From Candidatus Nitrososphaera evergladensis SR1 (GTDB lineage Archaea; Thermoproteota; Nitrososphaeria; Nitrososphaerales; Nitrososphaeraceae), in NCBI RefSeq assembly GCF_000730285.1, contig NZ_CP007174.1, positions 1,488,001 through 1,552,000 on the forward strand: DNA of 64,000 bases, given 5' to 3'. Positions 39,237 to 55,247 of the stretch are shown here, in pieces. The translations under genes and the position numbers were made by a program. The notes under the pieces are model-generated. The model searched no databases, was not told the DNA's origin, and saw only the letters and a list, made by a program, of their open reading frames with translations. Every line of letters starts with the position of its first letter. Positions within the stretch are counted from its first letter, which is position 1.

Positions 39237-39773
39237 TTACTTCTTTTGTTGCCCTGCCGCCGTCAGTTCCTTGTATTCTGGCCTTTCCATCGCCCTTGCA
39301 AGAGCAGCATTTATGATTTCAAGAGCGAGAAACTCCCTGCACTTGCCGTCCTTGTCAAGCGCCAAAAAACGCTTGTCCTCATGCACGCTCTTTAGCACCT
39401 TTGCCAGCTTGCCGCTCGTATCGTCAATCAGCCGTAAAGCCTTGCTGTCAAGATCTGCTGGCGCTTGGCAGTCAAACACCCGGAGCGTAGCAGAGTAGTA
39501 CTTCATCACTGCGCCCCTTACTTCGACCATCTTTGCCGCTTCTACCAGGCCTGCTTCCTTGAGCGTGTCAAGATGGTGCCTGACCGTGGTCGTGGCCTTT
39601 TTGACGCCTGCACTTCCTAGCGCTTTTGCGATTTCTTCGGCGTTCATGGGCTTGTGGCTTACAAGCTCTAGTATCCGCATTCTTGCAGGGTCGCTTAACC
39701 CCTGCGCTGCGACATGATTCAAGGTTGTCACGCGCCTTACTTTAACGTCCTTTTGAAACAGCGCATCTGCCAT
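39237..39773 (-). CDS. ArsR-type winged-helix transcription regulator
   Basis: From ATG 39,773 a 178-residue protein: MADALFQKDVKVRRVTTLNH, then the winged helix (RMRILELVSHKPMNAEEIAK, GVKKATTTVRHHLDTLKEAG, VEVRGAVMKYYSATLRV wing, about residues 25-100), and a helical C-terminal domain for dimerisation or sensing. No cysteine metal site of the ArsR/SmtB kind is evident. Earlier in-frame Mets at 39,794 and 39,863 give less likely extensions. Confidence 0.85.
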   Translation of the reverse strand: MADALFQKDVKVRRVTTLNHVAAQGLSDPARMRILELVSHKPMNAEEIAKALGSAGVKKATTTVRHHLDTLKEAGLVEAAKMVEVRGAVMKYYSATLRVFDCQAPADLDSKALRLIDDTSGKLAKVLKSVHEDKRFLALDKDGKCREFLALEIINAALARAMERPEYKELTAAGQQKK

Positions 39774-40054
39774 ATGCGTACAGGATGCCGTCATGCATAG
39801 TAAAGCGCGCTTGTCTGATTGTTTTGTTCTGTTGGTTAATTGCAATCGTATCTGTAGTTGCAATATGGCATAGATAGTATAGTTATTAATTCCGCCATCT
39901 CTAGTTTATCATGATGAAATGATACTATAATTGTAGTAATGCTATGACAAATTCGGTTGGCTGTCGCGCAAAAGCGGCCAGGCAGGCGATGGGGCCGCCT
40001 GCAAGCACGCAGCATGCGGAAAAAGGCGCAGAAATAAGGCAGGGAATTGAGCGA

Positions 40055-40888
40055 TTAAAGCGTCCTGCCGCTTATGCGCTCGTACGCAAGTATGTAGCGC
40101 CTTGAAAGCTCGCCTGCTATTTCAGGCGCAACTGCGGGCGGCTCGGGCTTTTTGCCTTCCTTTGCAAGCCTGTCGATTTCTGCCTTGAACCCTGTCTTGA
40201 TGAGCCAGTCGCGCAAAAGTTGCTTGTCGTACGCCTCCTGGATCCTGCCCGGCTGGTAGTCGGCCTTGAGCCAAAGGCGGTATTCATCAGGCCCAAGCGA
40301 GTCCCCCAACACTATTCTGCCGCTTTCGTCGCGGCCAAACTCGAACTTGACATCGGCTATGATAAAGCCAGCCTTTTCGACGATTGCACTCATCTTTTCA
40401 TAGAGCGAGATTGACGTCTTTTCAAGAAACTCATAGTCGTCTTTGGAGACAAGGCCCATAGAGATGGCCTGCTCCTTGTTGACTGGCATGTCGTGCTCCT
40501 CTGATTTTGTCGTCGGGTCAAATATCGGCCTTGGCAGCTTGCCGGCCATCACCGGCTTGTAATCTGCAGGCAGGCTCTTGCCAAGGTGGTCCTTAAAGCG
40601 CTCGGCAAAACTGCCATAGAAATACCCCCGTACAACGCACTCTAGCGGGATCATGGTCAGTTTCTTTACCACCATCTTGTCCTTGTCCTGCACTCGCAGC
40701 ATGTGGTGCGGCGTGCCAAGGGTGTTGAACCAGAACTCGCCAAACCTGCACAATACCTCGCCTTTTCTCGGTATGGGAGTTGCCATCTTGACGTCAAACG
40801 CCGAGACCCTGTCTGAGAAATGGAAGAGGATGTTGCCATCATCAAGCTGGTAAATGTCCTTGACCTTGCCCTTGCGGATAAGCCTCAA
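40055..40888 (-). CDS. purC: SAICAR synthetase
   Basis: Joins aspartate to CAIR with ATP in purine synthesis. The 277-residue protein has the PurC order: KGKVKDIYQLDDGNILFHFS, DRVSAFDVKMATPIPRKGEV, PLECVVRGYFYGS, and FIIADVKFEFGRDESGRIVL with GDSLGPDEYRLW. The length is close to archaeal PurC. It is divergent from purK/purE across about 120 bases, giving a small purine cluster. Confidence 0.96.
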   Translation of the reverse strand: MRLIRKGKVKDIYQLDDGNILFHFSDRVSAFDVKMATPIPRKGEVLCRFGEFWFNTLGTPHHMLRVQDKDKMVVKKLTMIPLECVVRGYFYGSFAERFKDHLGKSLPADYKPVMAGKLPRPIFDPTTKSEEHDMPVNKEQAISMGLVSKDDYEFLEKTSISLYEKMSAIVEKAGFIIADVKFEFGRDESGRIVLGDSLGPDEYRLWLKADYQPGRIQEAYDKQLLRDWLIKTGFKAEIDRLAKEGKKPEPPAVAPEIAGELSRRYILAYERISGRTL

Positions 40889-41010
40889 CGCCGAATTGTT
40901 GCGTGTTATGGCATATCTGCTTATCTATTGTTCTTGTTATTTTTAAAAAAGGCTTTTAACGGCGCCTGTACGAACCAACGTCGGAATTGTTAAAGAGCGA
41001 CATGCTTTCC

Positions 41011-42177
41011 ATGAAAAGCCCCACCTGCGTCGGGATAATCGGCGGCGGGCAGCTTGGCAAGATGATAGCACACGAGGCAAGGCGCATGTCGTTTAGGGTC
41101 ATAGTTCTCGACCCGACCGAAGGCTGTCCAGCTTCAAGAATAGCCGACGAGCAGATTGTGGCCGACTTTAAGGACGAGGCCGCGATCATGAGGCTGGCAG
41201 AAAAATGCGACGTGCTCACCTATGAAATCGAGCTGGCCAACTCGACTGCGCTAAAGCAACTGGAGGAGAAAAACTATCCCGTCCGGCCTGCCCCTGAAAC
41301 CCTGCGCATCATACAAAACAAACACCGCCAAAAGTCATTTCTTCAGAAGCACAGGATAGCAGTTCCTGATTTTGAGCTTGTAAAATCAGAAGAGCACCTG
41401 CACGAGCTGTGCCAGAAATTCGGTCTTCCCGCGGTCCTGAAAGCGACTGAGGACTCGTACGACGGCCGAGGCAACTTTGTGATAAAAACCAAGGGCGACA
41501 TACACCGCGCCTACGAGTATTTCAAAGGCAGGGAAATCATGCTGGAAAAGTTTGTCCTTTTTACAAAGGAAGTGTCGATAATGGTGGCAAGAAACCCTTC
41601 CGGGCAGATAGAGTCGTTTCCAGTCGTTGAAAATATCCACAAAAACAGCATACTTGACACCACGATTGCGCCAGCGCAGATAAGCCGCAAGGTCGAGCAG
41701 AAAGCCATAAAGCTGGCAAAGAGGACGATGGAGGTTCTGCACGGCGCAGGCATCTTTGGGATTGAAATGTTTGTAACAAAAAGAGGCGACGTGCTGATAA
41801 ACGAGATTGCGCCCCGGGTCCACAACTCTGGCCACTACACCAACGAGGCGTGCTCGGTGTCGCAGTTTGAGCAGCATCTGCGGGCCGTGCTTGACCTGCC
41901 GCTTGCCAAGCCGGAACTTCTGTCGCCGGCAGTCATGATAAACATCTTGGGTCCTGAAGACTTTGACGGCGTGTATGCAGTCGCCGGACTTGACGCGATG
42001 ATGAAGGTGCCCGGGGCGGAACTGTACGTCTATGGCAAAAAGGTATCCAAGCCGCGCAGAAAACTTGGCCACATCACGGCTACCGGCAGGACCGTAAAGG
42101 AGGCCCTAGCAAGGGCTAAAAAGGCGCGCAATGCTATCACGCTCGTGCCGGCCGCAGAAAAAGAGGGAGCAAGCTGA
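41011..42177 (+). CDS. purK: N5-carboxyaminoimidazole ribonucleotide synthetase
   Basis: ATP-grasp enzyme that carboxylates AIR. It begins [20 protein letters not shown], has [20 protein letters not shown] (ATP-grasp loop), [20 protein letters not shown], and [20 protein letters not shown] with [20 protein letters not shown]. About 388 residues. ATG 41,011 (MKSPTCVG) is chosen; 40,987 and 41,002 are in frame. It is followed five bases later by purE. Confidence 0.96.
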
Positions 42178-42182
42178 TAACG

Positions 42183-42731
42183 ATGGCAACAGCGACAACA
42201 AAAAAACCGCTTGTAGGCATCATCATGGGAAGCGACTCTGACCTGCCGGTGATGAAAGAGGCGGCAGAGTTCCTCGACTCTTTTGGCGTTCCAAACGAGG
42301 TGACCATAGTGTCTGCGCACCGCACCGCAAAGCGCATGTACGACTATGCCAAAAGCGCCAAGAAAAGGGGAATAGAGGTAATCATTGCAGGGGCCGGAGG
42401 GGCGGCCCACCTGCCGGGCATGACTGCGTCGCTTACCCCCCTGCCCGTGATAGGCGTTCCGATAAAGACCAAGAGCCTTGACGGCATTGATTCATTGCTT
42501 TCAATAGCACAGATGCCGCCCGGCGTCCCCGTTGCGACGGTGGCTATAAACGGCGCAAAAAACGCCGGCATACTTGCGTGCCAGATCCTTGCGGCCAAGC
42601 ACCCTGCCATTGCAAAAAGGATAGAGAAATTCAAGCAGGAGATGGAAGGTTCCGTTCTTGAAAAGGCCCAGTCGCTTGAAGACATGGGCATAGGCAAGTA
42701 CCTGGCAAAAGATCGTCGATTGCAGCAGTAG
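42183..42731 (+). CDS. purE: N5-CAIR mutase
   Basis: Moves the carboxyl group of N5-CAIR to give CAIR. The 182-residue class I PurE has [60 protein letters not shown] and [20 protein letters not shown], containing the catalytic His and the SxSD phosphate loop. It lies five bases after purK. Confidence 0.97.
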
Positions 42732-42763
42732 AATTTATTTGGCCGCTCCCGATACCTCTTGGC

Positions 42764-43069
42764 GTGGAGTATCAAGAGCATAATTCTTCCAGCCATTCCC
42801 ACGGTGAACTGCACAAAGAAGAGGAGCACGGGCACGGCGACGGCGAGCCAGTGATTGTCAAAAGGTTGGCGCCAAACGAGATGCTGGCCAACGACCTGAA
42901 TGAACACGGCATCATTGCCGAGACGGTTGCGCAGGGCACGCATCCTATTGAGAGCAAGCCATGCTACAGCCACATGTTTGGCATGAATTCCAAGTTTACT
43001 ACCAACAAGGGCGTCATTAGGGTCAGGAACAAGAACTTTGACCTTGTCCAGGTGCTCCAGAAACACTAG
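42764..43069 (+). CDS. His-rich small protein, unknown
   Basis: A 101-residue protein from GTG 42,764. The N-terminus is rich in His and Glu (SSSHSHGELHKEEEHGHGDG) and could bind metal. The rest (RLAPNEMLANDLNEHGIIAE, then MFGMNSKFTTNKGVIRVRNK) looks like a conserved domain. It follows purE by 32 bases and is followed at 13 bases by another small gene, so all may share a transcript. No function can be given. Confidence 0.65.
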   Translation: MEYQEHNSSSHSHGELHKEEEHGHGDGEPVIVKRLAPNEMLANDLNEHGIIAETVAQGTHPIESKPCYSHMFGMNSKFTTNKGVIRVRNKNFDLVQVLQKH

Positions 43070-43082
43070 GTGATAAGAAAAA

Positions 43083-43469
43083 ATGACAAGACAAGATTCA
43101 ATGCCGCTTCCGTATGGTGCGCTTGACTACTACCAGGTACACTATATCGTCCAGACAGGCGACGACGTAAACACGCAAAAGTTCCTTGCAAGGTGCGAGC
43201 CGATAACCAAGGGCCACTTTTCTGAAAAGCGCGTCGTTGCAGTCAAGTGGACAGGCGCAAGCGCCTTTGCAGACAAACTGCAGCAGGACGAGCGCCTTAC
43301 TGAGCTGTTAAAGCAGGTGCTCCTGCACGAGCGCGAGGTCCGCGTTGACCCGCTTGACGGGCACGTGAGGATCTATGGCCGGTGGAACCACGATGAAAAC
43401 CTGAAGGCAAACCCTGTCATGGTAGAGATCGCAGACATTATCGCCGGCCACATCAAGGCCGCGCTCTAG
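43083..43469 (+). CDS. Small soluble protein, unknown
   Basis: A 128-residue protein: MTRQDSMPLPYGALDYYQVH, with alternating strands and helices, TKGHFSEKRVVAVKWTGASA and VRVDPLDGHVRIYGRWNHDE. It has no membrane part or cysteine cluster. The gene lies close after the His-rich protein on the same strand. Codon use is like the chromosome. Family not recognised. Confidence 0.65.
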   Translation: MTRQDSMPLPYGALDYYQVHYIVQTGDDVNTQKFLARCEPITKGHFSEKRVVAVKWTGASAFADKLQQDERLTELLKQVLLHEREVRVDPLDGHVRIYGRWNHDENLKANPVMVEIADIIAGHIKAAL

Positions 43470-43563
43470 TTCCTTTTTCCTTATCGTCACATTAGCTTCC
43501 TTCTTCATTTGCCCTGCTATTGTGACTCGTAAGCACCATATACTCTGATGACTTTACAAGTCC

Positions 43564-44538
43564 TTAAAGCGCGTAATCTTGTTCGTCCTCATTGTCTCCC
43601 AGCATGTTGTTGTCGGCAAATGACAATGTCATCATTTCTGGGTGAAATTTGCGAAAATAGTCTACAGGGTCTCCAGACAGCCTGTTGTCTCTCTCCTTGC
43701 GAATTATCCGCCCCATTTCATGCACGCAATATCGGTTTAGATATGAAACGAGATGCATTGGCCTGCCTGCGTTGATTTCGTCTTTCTTTTTCCTTTCGGC
43801 TGCTGTATTGTAAACGCTGCGAAGCCATCTCTTGTTTCCATTCCGGCGAAATTCTTCTTCGTCCTTTTCGTCAAATGTGGTCTTGACTCGAATCCCGAAC
43901 ACCCTGAATATTTTCTCACCAATCCTATTGAAGCTGGCCTGCTGAAGATCCCTTATTTTCTGGATTGCATCTTGTTCAAAAGGTTCTAGCCTTTTCAGAT
44001 TCTCTTTAATCTCATTGCGCGTAATTTTGTTAGCTGGCATGCCGGCGTACAGGGCATAGTAGTAATCGCCCATAGTCCAGCCATGCATTGCCAAATTCTG
44101 CTGCATTTCCTTGTTAGCCTCTTTGACTTCATCTCCATAGAATTTTGATATTTTCTTGCCCCGCTCATCATACGAAAAATATACTATCTCTCCAATGGCT
44201 TCTGGATCCTGATGCCGATACCGCTTGTCAATAATGTAGGTGTTATCAAGAGTAGTAGCATCTAGTTTAATCAGCAATGGGGCAGGCTGATGCCGCTCTA
44301 TAAGTTCCTTAATCCTCGCTTCAAGCTCATTTCGGTCCGCGGCAGTTATCTGACCTAGATCCTCGCTGCCAACGACCTTCAGCGCGCCACGCATGGCGTG
44401 GAATTGTTCGTTCTGCAGAAGAGTTGAAATTTCATCTTGGGCATATTTTTCTAGAATTGGTTTGAAAATTCTTGCTTTGATGGAAGGGTCAGGCTTTTCA
44501 GGCGGCGACGATGATGGTGATGGCAAGTTTGCTGTCAA
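43564..44538 (-). CDS. Partner protein of the CDC48-N-domain protein, unknown fold
   Basis: A 324-residue, soluble, highly charged protein. It begins with a Pro/Ser-rich tail (LPSPSSSPPEKPDPSIKARI), then helical stretches (QITAADRNELEARIKELIER), a strand/helix region (GEIVYFSYDERGKKISKFYG), an aromatic GWTMGDYYYALYAGMPANKI, and a basic helical C-terminal half ending in an acidic tail (NNMLGDNEDEQDYAL). Its ATG overlaps the TGA of the upstream gene (4 bases), so the two proteins are surely made together. I recognise no domain. Acidic tails of this kind are often docking sites, here perhaps for CDC48 or the proteasome. Confidence 0.75.
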   Translation of the reverse strand: MTANLPSPSSSPPEKPDPSIKARIFKPILEKYAQDEISTLLQNEQFHAMRGALKVVGSEDLGQITAADRNELEARIKELIERHQPAPLLIKLDATTLDNTYIIDKRYRHQDPEAIGEIVYFSYDERGKKISKFYGDEVKEANKEMQQNLAMHGWTMGDYYYALYAGMPANKITRNEIKENLKRLEPFEQDAIQKIRDLQQASFNRIGEKIFRVFGIRVKTTFDEKDEEEFRRNGNKRWLRSVYNTAAERKKKDEINAGRPMHLVSYLNRYCVHEMGRIIRKERDNRLSGDPVDYFRKFHPEMMTLSFADNNMLGDNEDEQDYAL

Positions 44539-45647
44539 CCTATGAATAGGTCGCCTCCTCCAGTTTCACCTTCCTCGTCCTTTACGCCTGCCGCTATCGC
44601 AGACCATTTGTTGAGTATCTTTTCTGCGGCACCAAAGACTGATTCGTGCAGCAGGCTCAATTTTGCGCTATTTTCCTTGTTAAGGCGGAACATTTCGTGT
44701 GCTGGCGTTGTTGGGGTAAATTCTGCTGTTGACGGAGATAATTTGGCGTTTGCCCCGTTCACAACTTTTATCGCGCTATCCATGCATCTATCGATGATTG
44801 CCCTCGCACGCTCGTTTGGCGGGACAAGTCGGCGAAAGGTTCTCATCTCGTTAACAAACCTTGAAGCAGAAAGTGTCAACTCCAGAGTCAGGACTACTCC
44901 CTGCTCGCTCGTTGACCTGTCAGTGGATTTTGGAACGCCTTTGCTGACTACTTCACTTTCTTGGTAGTCATTCTCAATGCTCTCGTCTACTATACCCCGG
45001 GCAACTATCGTCAGATCTATTGGCCCTTTGTTGGTCATGCCCGGTGCGCGGAGGCCACGTAGACCTGCTTCATACTTGAGCGTTTGCTGGTAGCGTGCAA
45101 CGGGCTTTGGCCGGACTGCCAGTTTTGTATCTTTTGTAATTATGGCAGCACCGGCATTTGATGGCTTGTCCGTACACAAACGAACCTCGACTACTCTGAA
45201 AACAACCATTTCACGGAAGCTGTGTGTCACAAGCAAGTCCCCGGCCGTCACTGGAATGGAGTCAAGTTGCTGGGCAAGTAGATCTTCTGATACGAATGAC
45301 AATGCTTCTGCCAGCGGAGCCATAATTACACTTTCGGCTTGAGGAATTTCCTTTCCGGCAGGTGTCACGCTAACTTTTCCTCCTATACCGACGGCAACGT
45401 TTGTCCTGAGGATCTCGTCCAGACGAATGATGTCTTTTTCTTGATCTGTAGGATAAAGTTCATGCACTTTGGCATAGGTTCGCCTGCCTCCTCCCAATTC
45501 AATAATGTCTCCGTTAGCCAAACCTAGTGCAGATAATAGATCCCTGTGAAGTCTGGCAATCCCGCGGTGTCTTCCCAGGGCGTACGCTTCTCTTACAGTC
45601 AAAGAGACTTTTTTATCCCGATTGAATGACGCTACATCGTAAGCCAT
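44535..45647 (-). CDS. Free-standing CDC48 N-domain protein without AAA ATPase
   Basis: A 370-residue protein. Residues about 10-185 match the CDC48/VAT N-domain. First the double-psi barrel (VSLTVREAYALGRHRGIARL, LLSALGLANGDIIELGGGRR, DIIRLDEILRTNVAVGIGGK). Then the four-stranded second subdomain (ESVIMAPLAEALSFVSEDLL, TAGDLLVTHSFREMVVFRVV). In CDC48 two AAA rings would follow; here there is no Walker motif. Instead there is a strand-rich middle (GVVLTLELTLSASRFVNEMR) and a helical end finishing EGETGGGDLFIG. It may act as an adaptor or decoy that binds CDC48 substrates or cofactors. Co-translated with the gene downstream. Confidence 0.8.
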   Translation of the reverse strand: MAYDVASFNRDKKVSLTVREAYALGRHRGIARLHRDLLSALGLANGDIIELGGGRRTYAKVHELYPTDQEKDIIRLDEILRTNVAVGIGGKVSVTPAGKEIPQAESVIMAPLAEALSFVSEDLLAQQLDSIPVTAGDLLVTHSFREMVVFRVVEVRLCTDKPSNAGAAIITKDTKLAVRPKPVARYQQTLKYEAGLRGLRAPGMTNKGPIDLTIVARGIVDESIENDYQESEVVSKGVPKSTDRSTSEQGVVLTLELTLSASRFVNEMRTFRRLVPPNERARAIIDRCMDSAIKVVNGANAKLSPSTAEFTPTTPAHEMFRLNKENSAKLSLLHESVFGAAEKILNKWSAIAAGVKDEEGETGGGDLFIG

Positions 45648-46031
45648 TTCCTTGCTCCTTTCTTTAATCCATTATAGCAGGCATACTGTATGTGGCATTC
45701 TCAGTTAGATAAACAAATACGCCAATCTCATTAACCAACTTGCAACAATAAAAGTGCAAGAATAGGCAATGCAATAGCTCAAAAAGATTCCCGTAGTGCC
45801 GTCTAGAATTGAATTGTCTTGTACAGAATTATATCTTGCTGGCCCCCTTCCCAATGATCACTCTTTTTCCCAAGTGTGGAAAAGCTACCAACGCAAGCGT
45901 ATGCCTTTTTTCCTCAAGAGAAAGTGGCAAAGCCGAGCCTGATTCACTCAAGCTCAAACAATAATCTCCGTACCGACCAGAAATACCTTTAATAACCGTG
46001 CAAAAGCCTCTTGCACCCTGAGAATATTGAT
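45648..46031. promoter_or_regulatory. Divergent intergenic region
   Basis: About 380 bases between the CDC48-N gene (leftward) and the double-SDR gene (rightward). It is A+T-rich near both ends. CCTTTAATAACC at 45,987-45,998 is a TATA-like box about 35 bases ahead of ATG 46,032, fitting a promoter with a short leader. Nothing else recognised. Confidence 0.45.
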
Positions 46032-47828
46032 ATGAGTGGTTTAAAATTTGATGGTAAAACCGTTGTTGTTACTGGAAGCGGCACCGGCATCGGCCAGGCC
46101 ATTGCCAAGAGGTTTGCCGAGGCAGGCGCCAACATTGTCATAATGGGCAGGCGCAAAGAGCCCCTTGACCAGACTGCCGAGATACTAAACGACATCATCA
46201 AAAAGGCTGGCTCCAAAGGCAGGGTCGCCACCTTTCCCGGGGTGGACGTCTCCGACGAGGAAGGCATCAACACCATGTTTGAGGGCGTCAAGAAGCAGTT
46301 TGGCAGGGTCGACATCATCGTCAACAATGCCGGCGTTTCCGGGCCGGTCAAGACTTTTACAAACGCAAGCATCAAAGAGTTCCGCGAGTGCGTCGCAATA
46401 CACCTGACTGGGACCTTCTGGACTTCGGCGGCCGGCCTGAAGGCGATGGAAAAGGGCGGCAAGATAATCACGATATCGACATTCTTTTCTGAGGAAAACA
46501 GGTACGAGCAGCGCCCGTACCGCTTCAGGACGCCGTACACCGCCTCGCAGGGCGCCAAGAACAGGCTTGCCGAGTGCCTTGCATGGGAGCTTGCAGAAAG
46601 GGGAATACGCTCGATTGCCACGAACCCCGGGCCGGTGCACTCTGACAGGATCTACAAGACCGTCTACCCAAAGGCGGCGGCAGAGTTTCTGCGCGTCGGC
46701 GGATACCCCGGCCTTTCATCAACCGAAGTCGAAGTGGTCACTGCCAAGGCGCTCCCGTACCTTGGCGACGCCGACGACATTGTGAAAAAAGCGTGCCGCG
46801 ACGCGGCCACAGAAATTGCCGCAAAGCGGGGCCAGCCTGACGAAGTGACTGTTTCAAAACTCGCAGAAACCGTTGCCGGCGCACTTGCCAAGATGCAAGA
46901 GATTGCCGAGAAAATCCAGGGCAACACCAGCAAGATGATTGTAGACAGCGAGTTCCTTTCTCAGGACGAGGTCGCCGAGATGGTGCTGAACCTCTCTGAC
47001 GAAAAGATAAGCAAGCTGATAAACGGCAGGGTGATACCAAACGACCGCGTATTTTACCCCGTCAAGCCGATTGTCGGCACCGGCGTCGACATACTGCCCG
47101 GCTCTGAACTGAAGGGCAAGGTAATCGTGCTGACCACGACGTCATCTGCCGCCAAAGACGTTGACAGGGTGAAAAAAATTGCAGGTATCGCGCAGGTTGC
47201 AGGAGCCAAGCAGGTCATAGTCCTGTACCGCAACAAGGCCGACGAGGCGCATTTCAAGGAATTCCACAGCCATGCAATCGACTTTCTCGATGAAACCGCG
47301 GTAAGGCGCATTTTCAACACTGCCAAGACGCACTTTGGACCAATAGATGCAGTCATACACTTTACCGGCGACTATGACTATAACTCAGCGTTCAGTACGA
47401 TGCCAAGGAAGCAGTGGGAAGGCCTCATTGACAACTTTCTCTACATACCTGGAATGATAGTAAAAGAATCGGTAATCGCAATGGCTCCAGAGGGCGCGCT
47501 TGCCGAGCCGGCCAAGTTCAAGGGGACAAAAGGCACAGTCACCCTAGTCGGACCTGACGCCCCTGTCGGCAAGAAAATATCCGGCACACTCCGCGCACGT
47601 GCTGACGTTTTCCGGGGAGCGCTGAGGCCGTACACGGCAACTACGAACCAGGAGCTTGGCGACGTGCTTGGGTCAAACATCAAGTTGCACTTGGTGCTTG
47701 CAGGGAACAGCGAAGGAGCAGAGCCAAACGCAGACAGGCTGCATGCCTCCATCCTGAGCCTTGCGGCAGGGGCGGCGCTCAAGCGCAACGAGGCAATATT
47801 CTACGTCGATGAGGCAAGGAATCAGTAG
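46032..47828 (+). CDS. Tandem SDR protein resembling the N-terminal half of malonyl-CoA reductase
   Basis: About 598 residues with two Rossmann units. The first is a full short-chain dehydrogenase: TVVVTGSGTGIGQAIAKRFA (cofactor loop), VNNAGVSGPVKTFTNASIKE, and the active-site pair in PYTASQGAKNRLAECLAWEL, then GIRSIATNPGPVHSDRI. The second (LKGKVIVLTTTSSAAKDVDR and AVIHFTGDYDYNSAFSTM) lacks a clear Gly-rich loop and catalytic Tyr. This tandem plan and the GPVHSDRI stretch are like MCR-N of Chloroflexus, which reduces malonic semialdehyde, a step of the thaumarchaeal carbon cycle. ATG 46,032 is preferred over 46,011. Confidence 0.8.
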   Translation: MSGLKFDGKTVVVTGSGTGIGQAIAKRFAEAGANIVIMGRRKEPLDQTAEILNDIIKKAGSKGRVATFPGVDVSDEEGINTMFEGVKKQFGRVDIIVNNAGVSGPVKTFTNASIKEFRECVAIHLTGTFWTSAAGLKAMEKGGKIITISTFFSEENRYEQRPYRFRTPYTASQGAKNRLAECLAWELAERGIRSIATNPGPVHSDRIYKTVYPKAAAEFLRVGGYPGLSSTEVEVVTAKALPYLGDADDIVKKACRDAATEIAAKRGQPDEVTVSKLAETVAGALAKMQEIAEKIQGNTSKMIVDSEFLSQDEVAEMVLNLSDEKISKLINGRVIPNDRVFYPVKPIVGTGVDILPGSELKGKVIVLTTTSSAAKDVDRVKKIAGIAQVAGAKQVIVLYRNKADEAHFKEFHSHAIDFLDETAVRRIFNTAKTHFGPIDAVIHFTGDYDYNSAFSTMPRKQWEGLIDNFLYIPGMIVKESVIAMAPEGALAEPAKFKGTKGTVTLVGPDAPVGKKISGTLRARADVFRGALRPYTATTNQELGDVLGSNIKLHLVLAGNSEGAEPNADRLHASILSLAAGAALKRNEAIFYVDEARNQ

Positions 47829-47891
47829 CCCTTACTGATTCTCTCTCTTCTTTTTGATAATCTTCAGATTGTATGTATGTGTATGCGGCAG

Positions 47892-48671
47892 CTACAACTT
47901 TACCCCTAGCCATTCTAGGATGAACGTGATGGCTACTGCCACCAGCATGATGCCAAGCATCTTTTGGAGCGACGCTGCCTTGGCATTTTTTGACCATCTG
48001 GCACCAAGCTGCGCACCCACTACAGCGCCCGCAGAAAGCGCAACTGCATAAACATAGTTTGGATGTCCAAGCAACGCATGAGTGAATATCCCTGCAAACG
48101 ACGTTATCATGAGCGTCAATTGCGAAGTGGCCGTAGCCCTGTGTATCGTCATGCGGTGTATTAGGAGCATCACCGGCACGAATATCACGCCGCCTCCCAC
48201 ACCAAAGAGACTCGAGATTATCCCTGCTCCAAAGGTTATCGCAAATATTGCCGCATGCTGGGCTATGGATATTTTTCGCGCCTCTTTTTCCTTCAGTATC
48301 GAGCTTCTGAAGACGATGTACGTGCCCACTGCCATTAGCAGTATGCCAAAATACAGCTTGAAATCTGCCTCTGATATCGTGCTTGAGATCAGACCCCCAA
48401 GTACCGCTCCAGGTACGGCTCCTGCTGCAAGCTCTAGTCCATGCCTGTAATCGATCCGCTTTTGGCGCGAAAATGCAACCGTGGATGACACGCTTGTAGA
48501 CGTCACCGCAAACAGGCTCGTGGCGGCAGTCTGGGATGGGGGAAGCCCCATGAATGTAAGCGCCGGCCCCATGATTATGCCCCCGCCCACTCCCAGCATG
48601 GAGCCTAGGGTGCCGGCTCCAAGGCCGACTGCCACAAGCACAATCACGGTGGTGACAATGTCAAACAACAA
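47892..48671 (-). CDS. TauE/SafE-family anion permease
   Basis: A 259-residue membrane protein with about eight helices in two related halves, each with the Gly-rich family motif: LGSMLGVGGGIIMGPALTFM near the start and ISSLFGVGGGVIFVPVMLLI near the middle. Members export or import sulfite, sulfoacetate or other organic anions; the substrate is not clear here. Convergent with the double-SDR gene. Confidence 0.92.
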   Translation of the reverse strand: MLFDIVTTVIVLVAVGLGAGTLGSMLGVGGGIIMGPALTFMGLPPSQTAATSLFAVTSTSVSSTVAFSRQKRIDYRHGLELAAGAVPGAVLGGLISSTISEADFKLYFGILLMAVGTYIVFRSSILKEKEARKISIAQHAAIFAITFGAGIISSLFGVGGGVIFVPVMLLIHRMTIHRATATSQLTLMITSFAGIFTHALLGHPNYVYAVALSAGAVVGAQLGARWSKNAKAASLQKMLGIMLVAVAITFILEWLGVKL

Positions 48672-48722
48672 AGGCTAGAACCTGATTGTATACCTAGATT
48701 CCTTAAAACTCTACCTCTTCTT

Positions 48723-49175
48723 TTAGGCGCCATCCTTCCACGCGTTCAGGACGGTTATTACTTGCGTGCCGGCGACGCCTGGGACTGCCTTTATCCTGCT
48801 TGCGATAATGTCTGCAAGGTCGCTTGGGCTCTTTGCCCTCACCTTCAGCAGCAGGTCGCCGTACGTGTGCGTCTCGTGCACCTCTGCCACCACGTCAATC
48901 AAGGCAAGCCTTTTTGCGACTTCTGCAGTTCTTCCCGGCGCCGCATTTAGGAGGACAAAAGCGATTGCGCCCTGTCCAAGCGCCATCGGGTCTATCGATA
49001 CCGTGAATCTGCGTATGACCCCTTGCCGGCGCAGCCTGTTTATCCTGTTTCTCACCGTCCCTTCGGTGACTTTTAGCATTCCTGCGATCTTGACTGCAGG
49101 AGTCGAGCTGTCCTTTTGCAGGATCTCGACAAGCCTGACATCCAGCTCGTCAATTTTGTAAGCAGCCGGCCTCAC
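48723..49175 (-). CDS. Lrp/AsnC-family regulator
   Basis: A 150-residue feast/famine regulator. The helix-turn-helix is at the N-terminus (DELDVRLVEILQKDSSTPAV, LKVTEGTVRNRINRLRRQGV) and a RAM/AsnC ligand-binding domain at the C-terminus (AIAFVLLNAAPGRTAEVAKR, VAEVHETHTYGDLLLKVRAK). It is divergent from homoserine dehydrogenase (95 bases between starts), so it may control that gene in response to an amino acid. Confidence 0.93.
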   Translation of the reverse strand: MRPAAYKIDELDVRLVEILQKDSSTPAVKIAGMLKVTEGTVRNRINRLRRQGVIRRFTVSIDPMALGQGAIAFVLLNAAPGRTAEVAKRLALIDVVAEVHETHTYGDLLLKVRAKSPSDLADIIASRIKAVPGVAGTQVITVLNAWKDGA

Positions 49176-49269
49176 AAGGCAAGCGTTGCGCCTGCTTGCG
49201 CTTTATAGTTTTGTCATTGTTGTTGTAAACATATTAACCCGAATACTTTAAGCAAATGGGTAACCGAAA

Positions 49270-50286
49270 TTGCGCGTAATCCTTGTGGGCTTTGGCGTCG
49301 TCGGCCAGAGTTTTGCCAAGCTATTGCTCTCACGCTCTGCAGACCTTTACAGCCAGCACGGGGTAAAGCCAAGGATAGTGGCGTGTGTCGACAACAGGGG
49401 CTCTGCCGTATCGCCTGCCGGCCTCAACCTTGAGCGCCTGCTTGCTGCAAAAAAAGCCAAGGGCACTGTCGGCGCCTATGACAAAAAGTCTGCAACAAAG
49501 TTTAACCCATTGCAGGTCATTGAAAACGTCGAGGCCGAGGTTGTAATAGAATGCACGCCTACAGACCTCTCGACGGGCGAGCCGGGGACGTCCCACATCA
49601 TATCGGCAATGAGGACTGGCAAGAACGTCATCAGCATAAACAAGGGCCCACTTGCGCTTGCCTTTCCCTCGCTGATAGAGCTGGCAAACTATAACGGGGT
49701 CATGTTCAGGTTCAGCGGCACCGTCGGGGGCGGCACACCGATACTTGAGTTTGCAAAGCGCTGCCTAAAGGGAGACAGGATAACCTCGTTTCAGGGAATA
49801 CTGAACGGCACTACAAACTATATCCTGAGCAAGATGGAAGAAGGCCTGACGTACCAGAGCGCCCTTTTGGACGCCAAGGAAAAAGGCTACGCAGAGGCCA
49901 AGCCCGAGCTCGATACAGACGGCTATGACGCGGCCGCAAAACTGGTCATCATGGCCAACTGGATAATGGGCATGAAGGTGACCATGAAGGACGTGGCAAG
50001 GACGGGGATATCAGAGGTCAGCGTCGCAGACGTGGAAAAGGCACAATCCCGTGCAAACGCGATAAAACTGATAGCAGCATGCGACAGCAGGCGCCTTGAG
50101 GTCAAGCCTACGGAGGTTTCCAAGAAGGACCCGATATGCGTCAACGGCACGCTAAACGCTGTCACTTTCTCGTCGGAGCATTCGGGCTCGCAGACCATCA
50201 TAGGGCGGGGAGCGGGCGGCATGGAGACTGCAAGCGCGGTTCTCCGAGACCTCATAGAGATTAGAGACACGATTTTTGAGCGCTAA
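49270..50286 (+). CDS. hom: Homoserine dehydrogenase
   Basis: Reduces aspartate semialdehyde to homoserine. The 338-residue protein from TTG 49,270 begins MRVILVGFGVVGQSFAKLLL (NAD(P)-binding). It has GKNVISINKGPLALAFPSLI, GTVGGGTPILEFAKRCLKGD, and the catalytic signature ILNGTTNYILSKMEEGLTYQ with AEAKPELDTDGYDAAAKLVI. There is no ACT domain and no aspartokinase fusion. It shares a pathway with thrC at the left end of the window. Confidence 0.95.
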   Translation: MRVILVGFGVVGQSFAKLLLSRSADLYSQHGVKPRIVACVDNRGSAVSPAGLNLERLLAAKKAKGTVGAYDKKSATKFNPLQVIENVEAEVVIECTPTDLSTGEPGTSHIISAMRTGKNVISINKGPLALAFPSLIELANYNGVMFRFSGTVGGGTPILEFAKRCLKGDRITSFQGILNGTTNYILSKMEEGLTYQSALLDAKEKGYAEAKPELDTDGYDAAAKLVIMANWIMGMKVTMKDVARTGISEVSVADVEKAQSRANAIKLIAACDSRRLEVKPTEVSKKDPICVNGTLNAVTFSSEHSGSQTIIGRGAGGMETASAVLRDLIEIRDTIFER

Positions 50287-50414
50287 AAAGGCGCTTTTTC
50301 CACCCGGAAAAGGGCGTACAAGCCTTGTCAAAATATGCTTAGCTGAGCTGTCAAGCAGTAGAAACAAATTACCTATAAATATCCGATCTGCATTCAAATT
50401 CTTATACTAGAACT

Positions 50415-50570
50415 ATGCAGATTTTAGGCATGGACACGGAAAAAACTGAGGAAATTGCAGGCGGGGAAATTGTCTGCGACCAGTGTGGCAAGAGGCCAGC
50501 CGAGATATTCCAGGTGACGGGCGACTATTGCGTCGAATGCTGGCAGGCCATAACGCACACAAGTACATAA
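50415..50570 (+). CDS. 51-aa zinc-ribbon protein
   Basis: MQILGMDTEKTEEIAGGEIV is followed by CDQCGKRPAEIFQVTGDYCV and EC: two CxxC pairs 18 residues apart, one zinc ribbon. Codon bias is chromosomal. It lies alone between homoserine dehydrogenase and the integrase, 57 bases before the integrase start. Such one-ribbon proteins are numerous in Nitrososphaera-type genomes; role unknown. Confidence 0.7.
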   Translation: MQILGMDTEKTEEIAGGEIVCDQCGKRPAEIFQVTGDYCVECWQAITHTST

Positions 50571-50626: not shown

Positions 50627-51934
50627 ATGGCTTTAATCGTTGAAGCAAAAGGCGCATACCAGAGGTTTCTTAGTAAGACAAGAAATGACTTCACACGTAG
50701 GCAATACGATCACTTTCTAACTACATTTATCGAATTCACTCTGAAGGTCAAGGTCGATTCTCCAAAGCTTCAAGAACTGAAGAAGGAATTTACAAAGAAC
50801 CGCCACAAGGAAAAGGCCACAAAGGAGGCACTCAAGAAGTCAATACTAGAAGAGAAAATTAGGATCATGGAGCCATTGGTTGCTCAGATCACAGAGCTTC
50901 CTATTACAAGCTTGGAGGACCTGATAATTGACTTCATCAACTACCTTAGTGGAATAGGCAGAGGTTATGGCAGCCAGATTGCCGTTGTAAACGCCATGCG
51001 CAAGTTCTGCAAGGCCAATAAAATAGTCCTTGATTTTGATGGGCTACGAGAAGCAGTTGGAGAGGATGACACGGAGAGGGACGACAAGCCGTATTCTAAG
51101 GACATGGTTCAGAGGGTCATGCAAGCAGCCGACTTGCGTAAACAGACAATCATAGGAATCCTTGCATCCTGTGGAATGCGCAGGGGAGGTTTGGCAGATT
51201 TGAAGTTAAAGCATCTGACAAAACTTTCGGTAGATAATTGGCCTACGGTGTATGCCCTAAAGGTGTATCCCAACTCAGCAAGGTCCTGCTATACCACATT
51301 TGTAACGCCAGAGGTCACGGCAATCATTGATCAGTACTTAGAATCCCGTCGAGCCGCCGGAGAGACGTTAAATGAAGAATCACCATTGCTAAGAGAGCAG
51401 TTCGCTATCGAAAGCGCCGACAATCCCCGGCACATCACAACGGGCACGATAGCACAACTCGTGCATCAAGTGATTGAAGATGCTGGACTAAAAGGAGAAC
51501 TAAGGAAGAACAAAATCCATGAAATGCACGGGTTCCGTAAGCATGTTTACACTGAGCTCATTAAGGCAGGAGTTAAAGACATCAACGTTAAACGCATAGT
51601 TGGACATTCTACTGGACTAGGCAAAAACTATGACCGCCAAGAATTGGAAGACGTGTTGCGAGATTACATGAAAGCGCTGCCTGCCTTAACCATCTCTGAT
51701 GCTCCGGTCCTCCGTGCCGAGCTAGAGAAGATGAAGATACAGAATGCAGACATTGATATCTTGAAAATCAAGGTCAGCCAGCAAGCTGATGACCTGCGGG
51801 TTATGCAGAGCATACTTGAGAGATATGCCAAGGGTGAGATACAACAGCCGCCTAAGAGGTCGCCTGAAGAGGAGCGGGACTATTTGGAGTGGCTGTTGCG
51901 GGATTATGAGAAGGAGCATGGCGGCTCCTCCTAG
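50627..51934 (+). CDS. Tyrosine recombinase/integrase
   Basis: A 435-residue site-specific recombinase. Residues 1-130 form the SAM-like core-binding domain (KTRNDFTRRQYDHFLTTFIE). The catalytic domain carries the expected set: Arg I in ILASCGMRRGGLADLKLKHL, HxxR in IHEMHGFRKHVYTELIKAGV, His in RIVGHSTGLGKNYDRQE, and the nucleophile Tyr is most likely that of KNYDRQ. A C-terminal coiled coil (LRAELEKMKIQNADIDILKI) is typical of archaeal virus and plasmid integrases. The 3' end overlaps the next, minus-strand gene by 83 bases. Confidence 0.93.
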   Translation: MALIVEAKGAYQRFLSKTRNDFTRRQYDHFLTTFIEFTLKVKVDSPKLQELKKEFTKNRHKEKATKEALKKSILEEKIRIMEPLVAQITELPITSLEDLIIDFINYLSGIGRGYGSQIAVVNAMRKFCKANKIVLDFDGLREAVGEDDTERDDKPYSKDMVQRVMQAADLRKQTIIGILASCGMRRGGLADLKLKHLTKLSVDNWPTVYALKVYPNSARSCYTTFVTPEVTAIIDQYLESRRAAGETLNEESPLLREQFAIESADNPRHITTGTIAQLVHQVIEDAGLKGELRKNKIHEMHGFRKHVYTELIKAGVKDINVKRIVGHSTGLGKNYDRQELEDVLRDYMKALPALTISDAPVLRAELEKMKIQNADIDILKIKVSQQADDLRVMQSILERYAKGEIQQPPKRSPEEERDYLEWLLRDYEKEHGGSS

Positions 51935-54770: not shown

Positions 54771-55247
54771 TCAAAAGCAGTTTTCCTTCTCCAAATAGTG
54801 GAGAATGTTTTGGTCTGTGAGCTGTATTCCTCCACCGTGATCGTTGACACAGACAAACTCCATCCTTTCAACATTGGCATCATAATCAATATCTATAATC
54901 AAAACTACCTGAGGCTCCCTTTGCAGGGTGCCGTTGTATCGCAGGCTGGTATTCCCTGCCTCAGTCTTCTCGTAGATGACTTGACGGCCCTCCACGGTTA
55001 CTTTTGGTTCTCCGTACTTCTTTTGGAACGCTTTCATCTCTGGCAATGTATTCAGTTTTTCTTTCACAAGTCCTTCGCTGTTGGGTTTCAGGCCTATGGG
55101 AACGTCGGCTGGCGGACTGGTTTGCAAGAGTCTGGGCAAATCAGGAATTACAACAACGATTATGATGACCACCACTATGATTGACATGATTAATCCAAAT
55201 ATCAAGAAGCGAGAATTGTCACCGCCTATGAAAGGGTCAATCGACAA
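54771..55247 (-). CDS. Membrane-anchored protein with MSID N-terminus
   Basis: A 158-residue protein: MSIDPFIGGDNSRFLIFGLI, an N-terminal anchor helix of exceptional I/V content, then a soluble domain (KAFQKKYGEPKVTVEGRQVI, VVLIIDIDYDANVERMEFVC) with two cysteines near the end. The first codons and the upstream 60 or so bases match those of the gene at 57,579 (MSIDSFVRGG), so the two share a duplicated promoter and leader. Function unknown. Confidence 0.65.
   Translation of the reverse strand: MSIDPFIGGDNSRFLIFGLIMSIIVVVIIIVVVIPDLPRLLQTSPPADVPIGLKPNSEGLVKEKLNTLPEMKAFQKKYGEPKVTVEGRQVIYEKTEAGNTSLRYNGTLQREPQVVLIIDIDYDANVERMEFVCVNDHGGGIQLTDQNILHYLEKENCF

Follow-up and report, generated by a model that had tools for sequence, protein, structure and literature searches.

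What becomes of the N-domain of CDC48 when it is encoded apart from its AAA motor, and does a gene that overlaps it encode its partner? These questions are raised by two adjoining genes, here called P1 and P2, of Candidatus Nitrososphaera evergladensis SR1, whose genome is a single contig of 2,954,373 bases. They lie in the stretch of 64,000 nucleotides analysed here (the window; positions 1,488,001 to 1,552,000 of contig NZ_CP007174.1), between a gene for a 128-aa protein without a Pfam match and one for a short-chain dehydrogenase. The coordinates originally given for both reading frames and their four-base overlap are confirmed from the sequence (Table 1). P2 might instead start at another TTG, its codon 5, in which case a short gap to P1 would replace the overlap.

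Table 1. Features of the P1-P2 locus and a second AAA-less protein of the same genome. Positions are those of the window unless a locus or contig is named.
Feature	Position	Strand	Description	Evidence
P1	44535-45647	minus	370-aa AAA-less CDC48 N-domain protein; ATG start	ORF list, family matches, full-length homologue L099
P2	43564-44538	minus	324 aa, without family; TTG start; mild acidic C-terminal tail	ORF; paralogue in its own genome
TTGA overlap, 4 bp	44535-44538	minus	P1 stop TGA and P2 start TTG	sequence
GGAG, Shine-Dalgarno-like	45655-45658	minus	7 nt upstream of P1 ATG	sequence
CDC48_N, double-psi beta-barrel subdomain (Nn)	45357-45602	minus	P1 aa 16-97	Pfam PF02359, E=3.4e-19
CDC48_2 subdomain (Nc)	45096-45284	minus	P1 aa 122-184	Pfam PF02933, E=9.4e-5
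P1 C-terminal half	44538-45095	minus	aa 185-370; no known family	common to L099 only
Lineage-specific segment, ~2.5 kb	43469-45983		holds P1 and P2	gap in alignment to G042; seven syntenic relatives without the pair
Second AAA-less CDC48-N protein	L004:1471-2298 (G000 C1:2726759-2727583)		275 aa	aa 15-175 share 59% identity with a host CDC48

P1 had been described as carrying both N-domain subdomains and no AAA module, and this description is borne out. The CDC48_N match scores 69 bits against a Pfam cut-off of 35.1, and the same lobe matches the profile of VAT-N (PDB 1cz4) at E=7.2e-9; the CDC48_2 match sits exactly at its Pfam cut-off. Of the 733 positions of the NCBIfam CDC48 model, P1 covers only 2-169, where the similarity stops, so that the D1 and D2 AAA modules are absent, and no Walker A motif (GTGK) is found in the protein. 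P1 therefore has the two subdomains of the archaeal CDC48/VAT N-domain in the same order, but differs from CDC48/VAT in lacking D1, D2 and the HbYX tail and in adding a new C-terminal half of 186 aa. The novelty of this half stands, as it belongs to no known family and gives weak, broken matches only among 397 phylum genomes. Its supposed helical nature is another matter: structure prediction, the check originally proposed, gave unusable models from the single sequences (pLDDT 35 for P1 with AlphaFold and 36 for P2), and a double-psi barrel is indicated by the sequence profiles.

P1 is not one part of a split CDC48. There is no adjoining AAA gene, and the seven CDC48_N copies of the host genome comprise, beside P1 and the 275-aa protein of Table 1, five complete CDC48s (722-747 aa) that sit elsewhere in the genome. 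The original view of a stand-alone N-domain protein is thus upheld. Over its residues 13-160 P1 shares 43% identity with one host CDC48, and the nearest of them, L112, has 45% identity to its first lobe and 37% to its second. The HbYX motif for proteasome docking is absent from the P1 C-terminus, which ends in GGGDLFIG; comparison with the tails of the five host CDC48s, among which are one FYG, one YYR and one HYG, led us to reject this end as a mimic of the CDC48 C-tail.

Although P1 was at first treated as singular, it has company. A CDC48_N search of 18 family genomes and 33 genomes of the order and phylum, with inspection of the short-frame matches, gave 18 AAA-less CDC48-N genes from ten genomes, counting P1 and the 275-aa protein. 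Apart from P1, at least 15 of them, spread over the host genome and nine more of its family or order, are intact AAA-less CDC48-N-like genes; this count leaves out P1, L100 (without the domain start) and L148 (25.7 bits), and takes in L102, L146 and L147 despite scores of 29-32 bits, lower than the 35.1 that Pfam requires. The C-termini differ: P1 and L099 have one type, L088, L095 and the shorter L104 another, and most of the others consist of little or nothing beyond the N-domain. Judged from these comparisons, ammonia-oxidising archaea have a loose set of AAA-less CDC48-N proteins that recurs among their genomes, and P1 belongs to it. Further candidates of 217-388 aa from fragmented genomes (L080-L087, L089-L092) were rejected, since all run off contig ends and most have Walker A, as was the 449-aa protein L079:5420-6769 (G041), a CDC48 variant made of the N-domain and a single AAA module.

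The full-length homologue of P1 is L099, a 332-aa protein of genome G002, which belongs to another genus. It aligns to P1 aa 23-304 (phmmer E=7.6e-20, 24% overall identity), including most of the C-terminal half, for which the similarity reaches z=5.1 and was equalled in 1 of 1000 shuffles. In a tree of N-domains P1 groups with L103 and L099, both of G002, with support of 91/75 and 90/76, values below the program's trust mark, and on long branches. On the question of a single or multiple origin of the AAA-less proteins, the best tree has four changes, one forced. The 275-aa protein also joins an N-domain to a non-AAA C-terminus, but its short C-terminal part has no detectable kinship to that of P1 (z=0.9, not significant).

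Several other members and relics of the set deserve record. A degraded relative of the C-terminal part of the 275-aa protein occurs in G026 (L105:5224-5601). In the same genome, L106:4210-4461 and the next frame split a CDC48 N-domain match into model positions 1-38 and 39-84, and the gene is likely frameshifted. L102:5711-6751 of G042 and L146:4128-5486 and L147:3170-4237 of G300 have a CDC48-N-like start followed by a DUF5643-like region, with all matches below cut-off, and a third G300 protein, L148:4331-5542, looks similar without a DUF5643 match. The C-terminal domain common to L088:1938-2762, L095:4002-4820 and L104:5065-5577 (CIDFEKERPKIM...) resembles a separate 114-aa protein, L095:2144-2488 (E=8e-4).

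P2, by comparison with protein family collections, has no convincing family match, in agreement with the initial reading that it has no known domain. Its sole relative among 70 family and 398 phylum genomes is a paralogue in the same genome (C1:2078079-2078948), and at 30% identity and E=3.4e-24 this paralogue shows that P2 is a real coding gene. Models for Cas2b, CARF, haem utilisation and tail proteins, and a glutathione transferase, were matched weakly (E from 6e-4 to 0.2) by one or other of the paralogues; none came up for both in a family search, and we take these matches as chance. The acidic tail ascribed to P2 is real but mild, the final 20 aa having six D/E and no K/R, and the paralogue has no such tail. 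Comparison of the neighbourhoods tells against the proposed two-gene system. Unlike P1, L099 has no P2 neighbour; the gene next to it is convergent and unrelated, and P2 is missing from the whole G002 genome. The P2 paralogue, in turn, has no CDC48-N gene beside it. A search for the pair in these other archaeal genomes gave no second example, P2 being found in its own genome only, so that, as far as genome comparison goes, P1 and P2 do not form a conserved system of two components.

What might P1 do? In p97, UBX and VIM partners sit in the groove that separates the two lobes of the N-domain, whereas SHP boxes attach to the second lobe (PMC5468458; PMC5042407). Our leading, though tentative, reading is that P1 may be a trans-acting ligand-binding module of the CDC48 type, adaptor- or decoy-like, with P2 as a lineage-specific accessory partner. 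We prefer such a role because P1 has kept both lobes and because N-domains with varied C-termini recur, a variety that fits a portable binding module. The P1 N-domain would still bind peptide, adaptor or ubiquitin-like ligands of the CDC48 type, through the inter-lobe groove or the Nc lobe, and P1 would act in trans, either delivering clients to one of the five complete CDC48s of the host or withdrawing ligands from them. Its C-terminal half might give specificity or oligomerisation, and P2, presumably produced by coupled translation, could be a bound accessory or client of P1 in this lineage only.

The eukaryotic p97 adaptor Ufd1 has a CDC48-N-like double-barrel fold in its N-terminal part, followed by a non-AAA C-terminal part. 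Its likeness to P1 is an analogy only: P1 gives no match to the UFD1 Pfam model up to E=10, and no SHP box (FxGxGxxL) is present in P1, P2, the P2 paralogue, the 275-aa protein or L099. P2 has a near-VIM at aa 240-250 (RSVYNTAAERK), one residue off RX5AAX2R (K for R), a sequence that 1.8% of shuffles also yield by chance and that the paralogue lacks; as several motifs were tried, we give it little weight.

A different account, which we consider unlikely but worth serious attention, is that the double-psi barrel has been put to new use with unrelated ligands, the AAA-less proteins being scaffolds with new C-termini and unlinked to CDC48 function. Their conservation is low, many have a weak second lobe or none, and the several C-termini, the DUF5643-like one included, are seemingly unrelated to one another. 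Their long branches point to fast evolution, which is equally compatible with loss of the original ligand. However, several of the proteins, P1 and the 275-aa protein among them, keep both lobes in the CDC48 order, with about 40-60% identity to a host CDC48 N-domain.

The genomic setting of P1 and P2 bears on their origin. DNA of G042 aligns to the window at 39511-43468 and 45984-50562 with 87% identity, and has 26 bp in place of the 2.5-kb segment. Gene order around the site is conserved in seven relatives within the genus: SAICAR synthetase, two genes that we interpret as purK and purE, a pair of small genes, the dehydrogenase and a putative transporter. In all seven the dehydrogenase comes immediately after the small gene g43083, and the window alone has P1 and P2 in between. 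From these seven empty sites we infer that the segment was probably gained in this lineage, rather than lost in all relatives, which agrees with the transfer first suggested. The richness in A+T that had prompted attention is real but moderate, about one standard deviation below the window mean in GC, with GC of 0.49 for P1 and 0.45 for P2 against 0.53-0.56 for the direct neighbours, and GC3 of 0.46 and 0.48 against 0.58-0.69. Since the P1-P2 unit lies on a lineage-specific segment, a niche function would be likelier for it than one in core proteostasis.

Such a setting could also suit cargo of a mobile island that counters the host CDC48 or proteasome, as a decoy of N-domain ligands, on behalf of a mobile element or virus. 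Not only P1 and P2 but also the P2 paralogue lie on segments absent from G042, the latter beside a membrane protein with a 70%-identical relative on an integrase island of the window. We nevertheless regard this account as improbable: the P1-P2 segment has no integrase and no target duplication, and its ends lack direct or inverted repeats of at least 9 bp; the pair has no match in phages or viral contigs, and for P2 none was found in plasmids or GTDB contigs either, nor any relative in pattern scans of viral and GTDB contigs.

The island itself is of low GC and lineage-specific, extending from window position 50563, immediately after the end of similarity to G042 at 50562, to at least 57579. 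It opens with a gene of the phage integrase family (50627-51934; PF00589, E=3e-7), and no tRNA was found in the window. The two copies of the small membrane protein family are at 54774-55247 on the island and at L011:9600-10043 (148 aa) beside the P2 paralogue. Their distribution hints at a shared mobile gene pool, and does not imply mobility of P1 and P2 themselves.

We hold it very improbable that P1 is a decaying, functionless remnant of a CDC48 duplicate. The genus does have a broken CDC48 gene (L106) and a remnant of an N-domain protein (L105), and AAA-less proteins evolve fast, but P1 is intact over 370 codons with a ribosome-binding site, its C-terminal half is still recognisable in L099 despite the low overall identity, and P2 is intact too and has a paralogue. 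The toxin-antitoxin-like or two-component conflict pair once envisaged is scarcely credible: apart from the overlap, lineage-specificity and A+T-richer composition of the two genes nothing supports it, as neither homologue keeps the pairing, no toxin, antitoxin or defence family is matched (weak PADLOC matches, E of 5e-4 and 5e-3, differ between P2 and its paralogue), and the two products are larger than is typical of type II systems.

Returning to P1 as a candidate trans-acting module, we may ask how far the reading extends to its relatives. That the whole AAA-less set serves CDC48 in trans, as adaptors or decoys, and is the archaeal counterpart of the eukaryotic layer of Ufd1-type cofactors, with P2 as a dedicated partner in one lineage, is a bolder proposition and appears doubtful at present. 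A literature search, which covered few subscription journals, gave no description of AAA-less CDC48-N proteins, and this absence is weak evidence. Little is known so far about the cofactors of archaeal CDC48. Recurrent motor-less CDC48 N-domains with exchangeable C-termini are concrete candidates for the regulation of archaeal CDC48 by trans-acting adaptors or decoys, and they also bear on whether the plan of Ufd1 has parallels in archaea.
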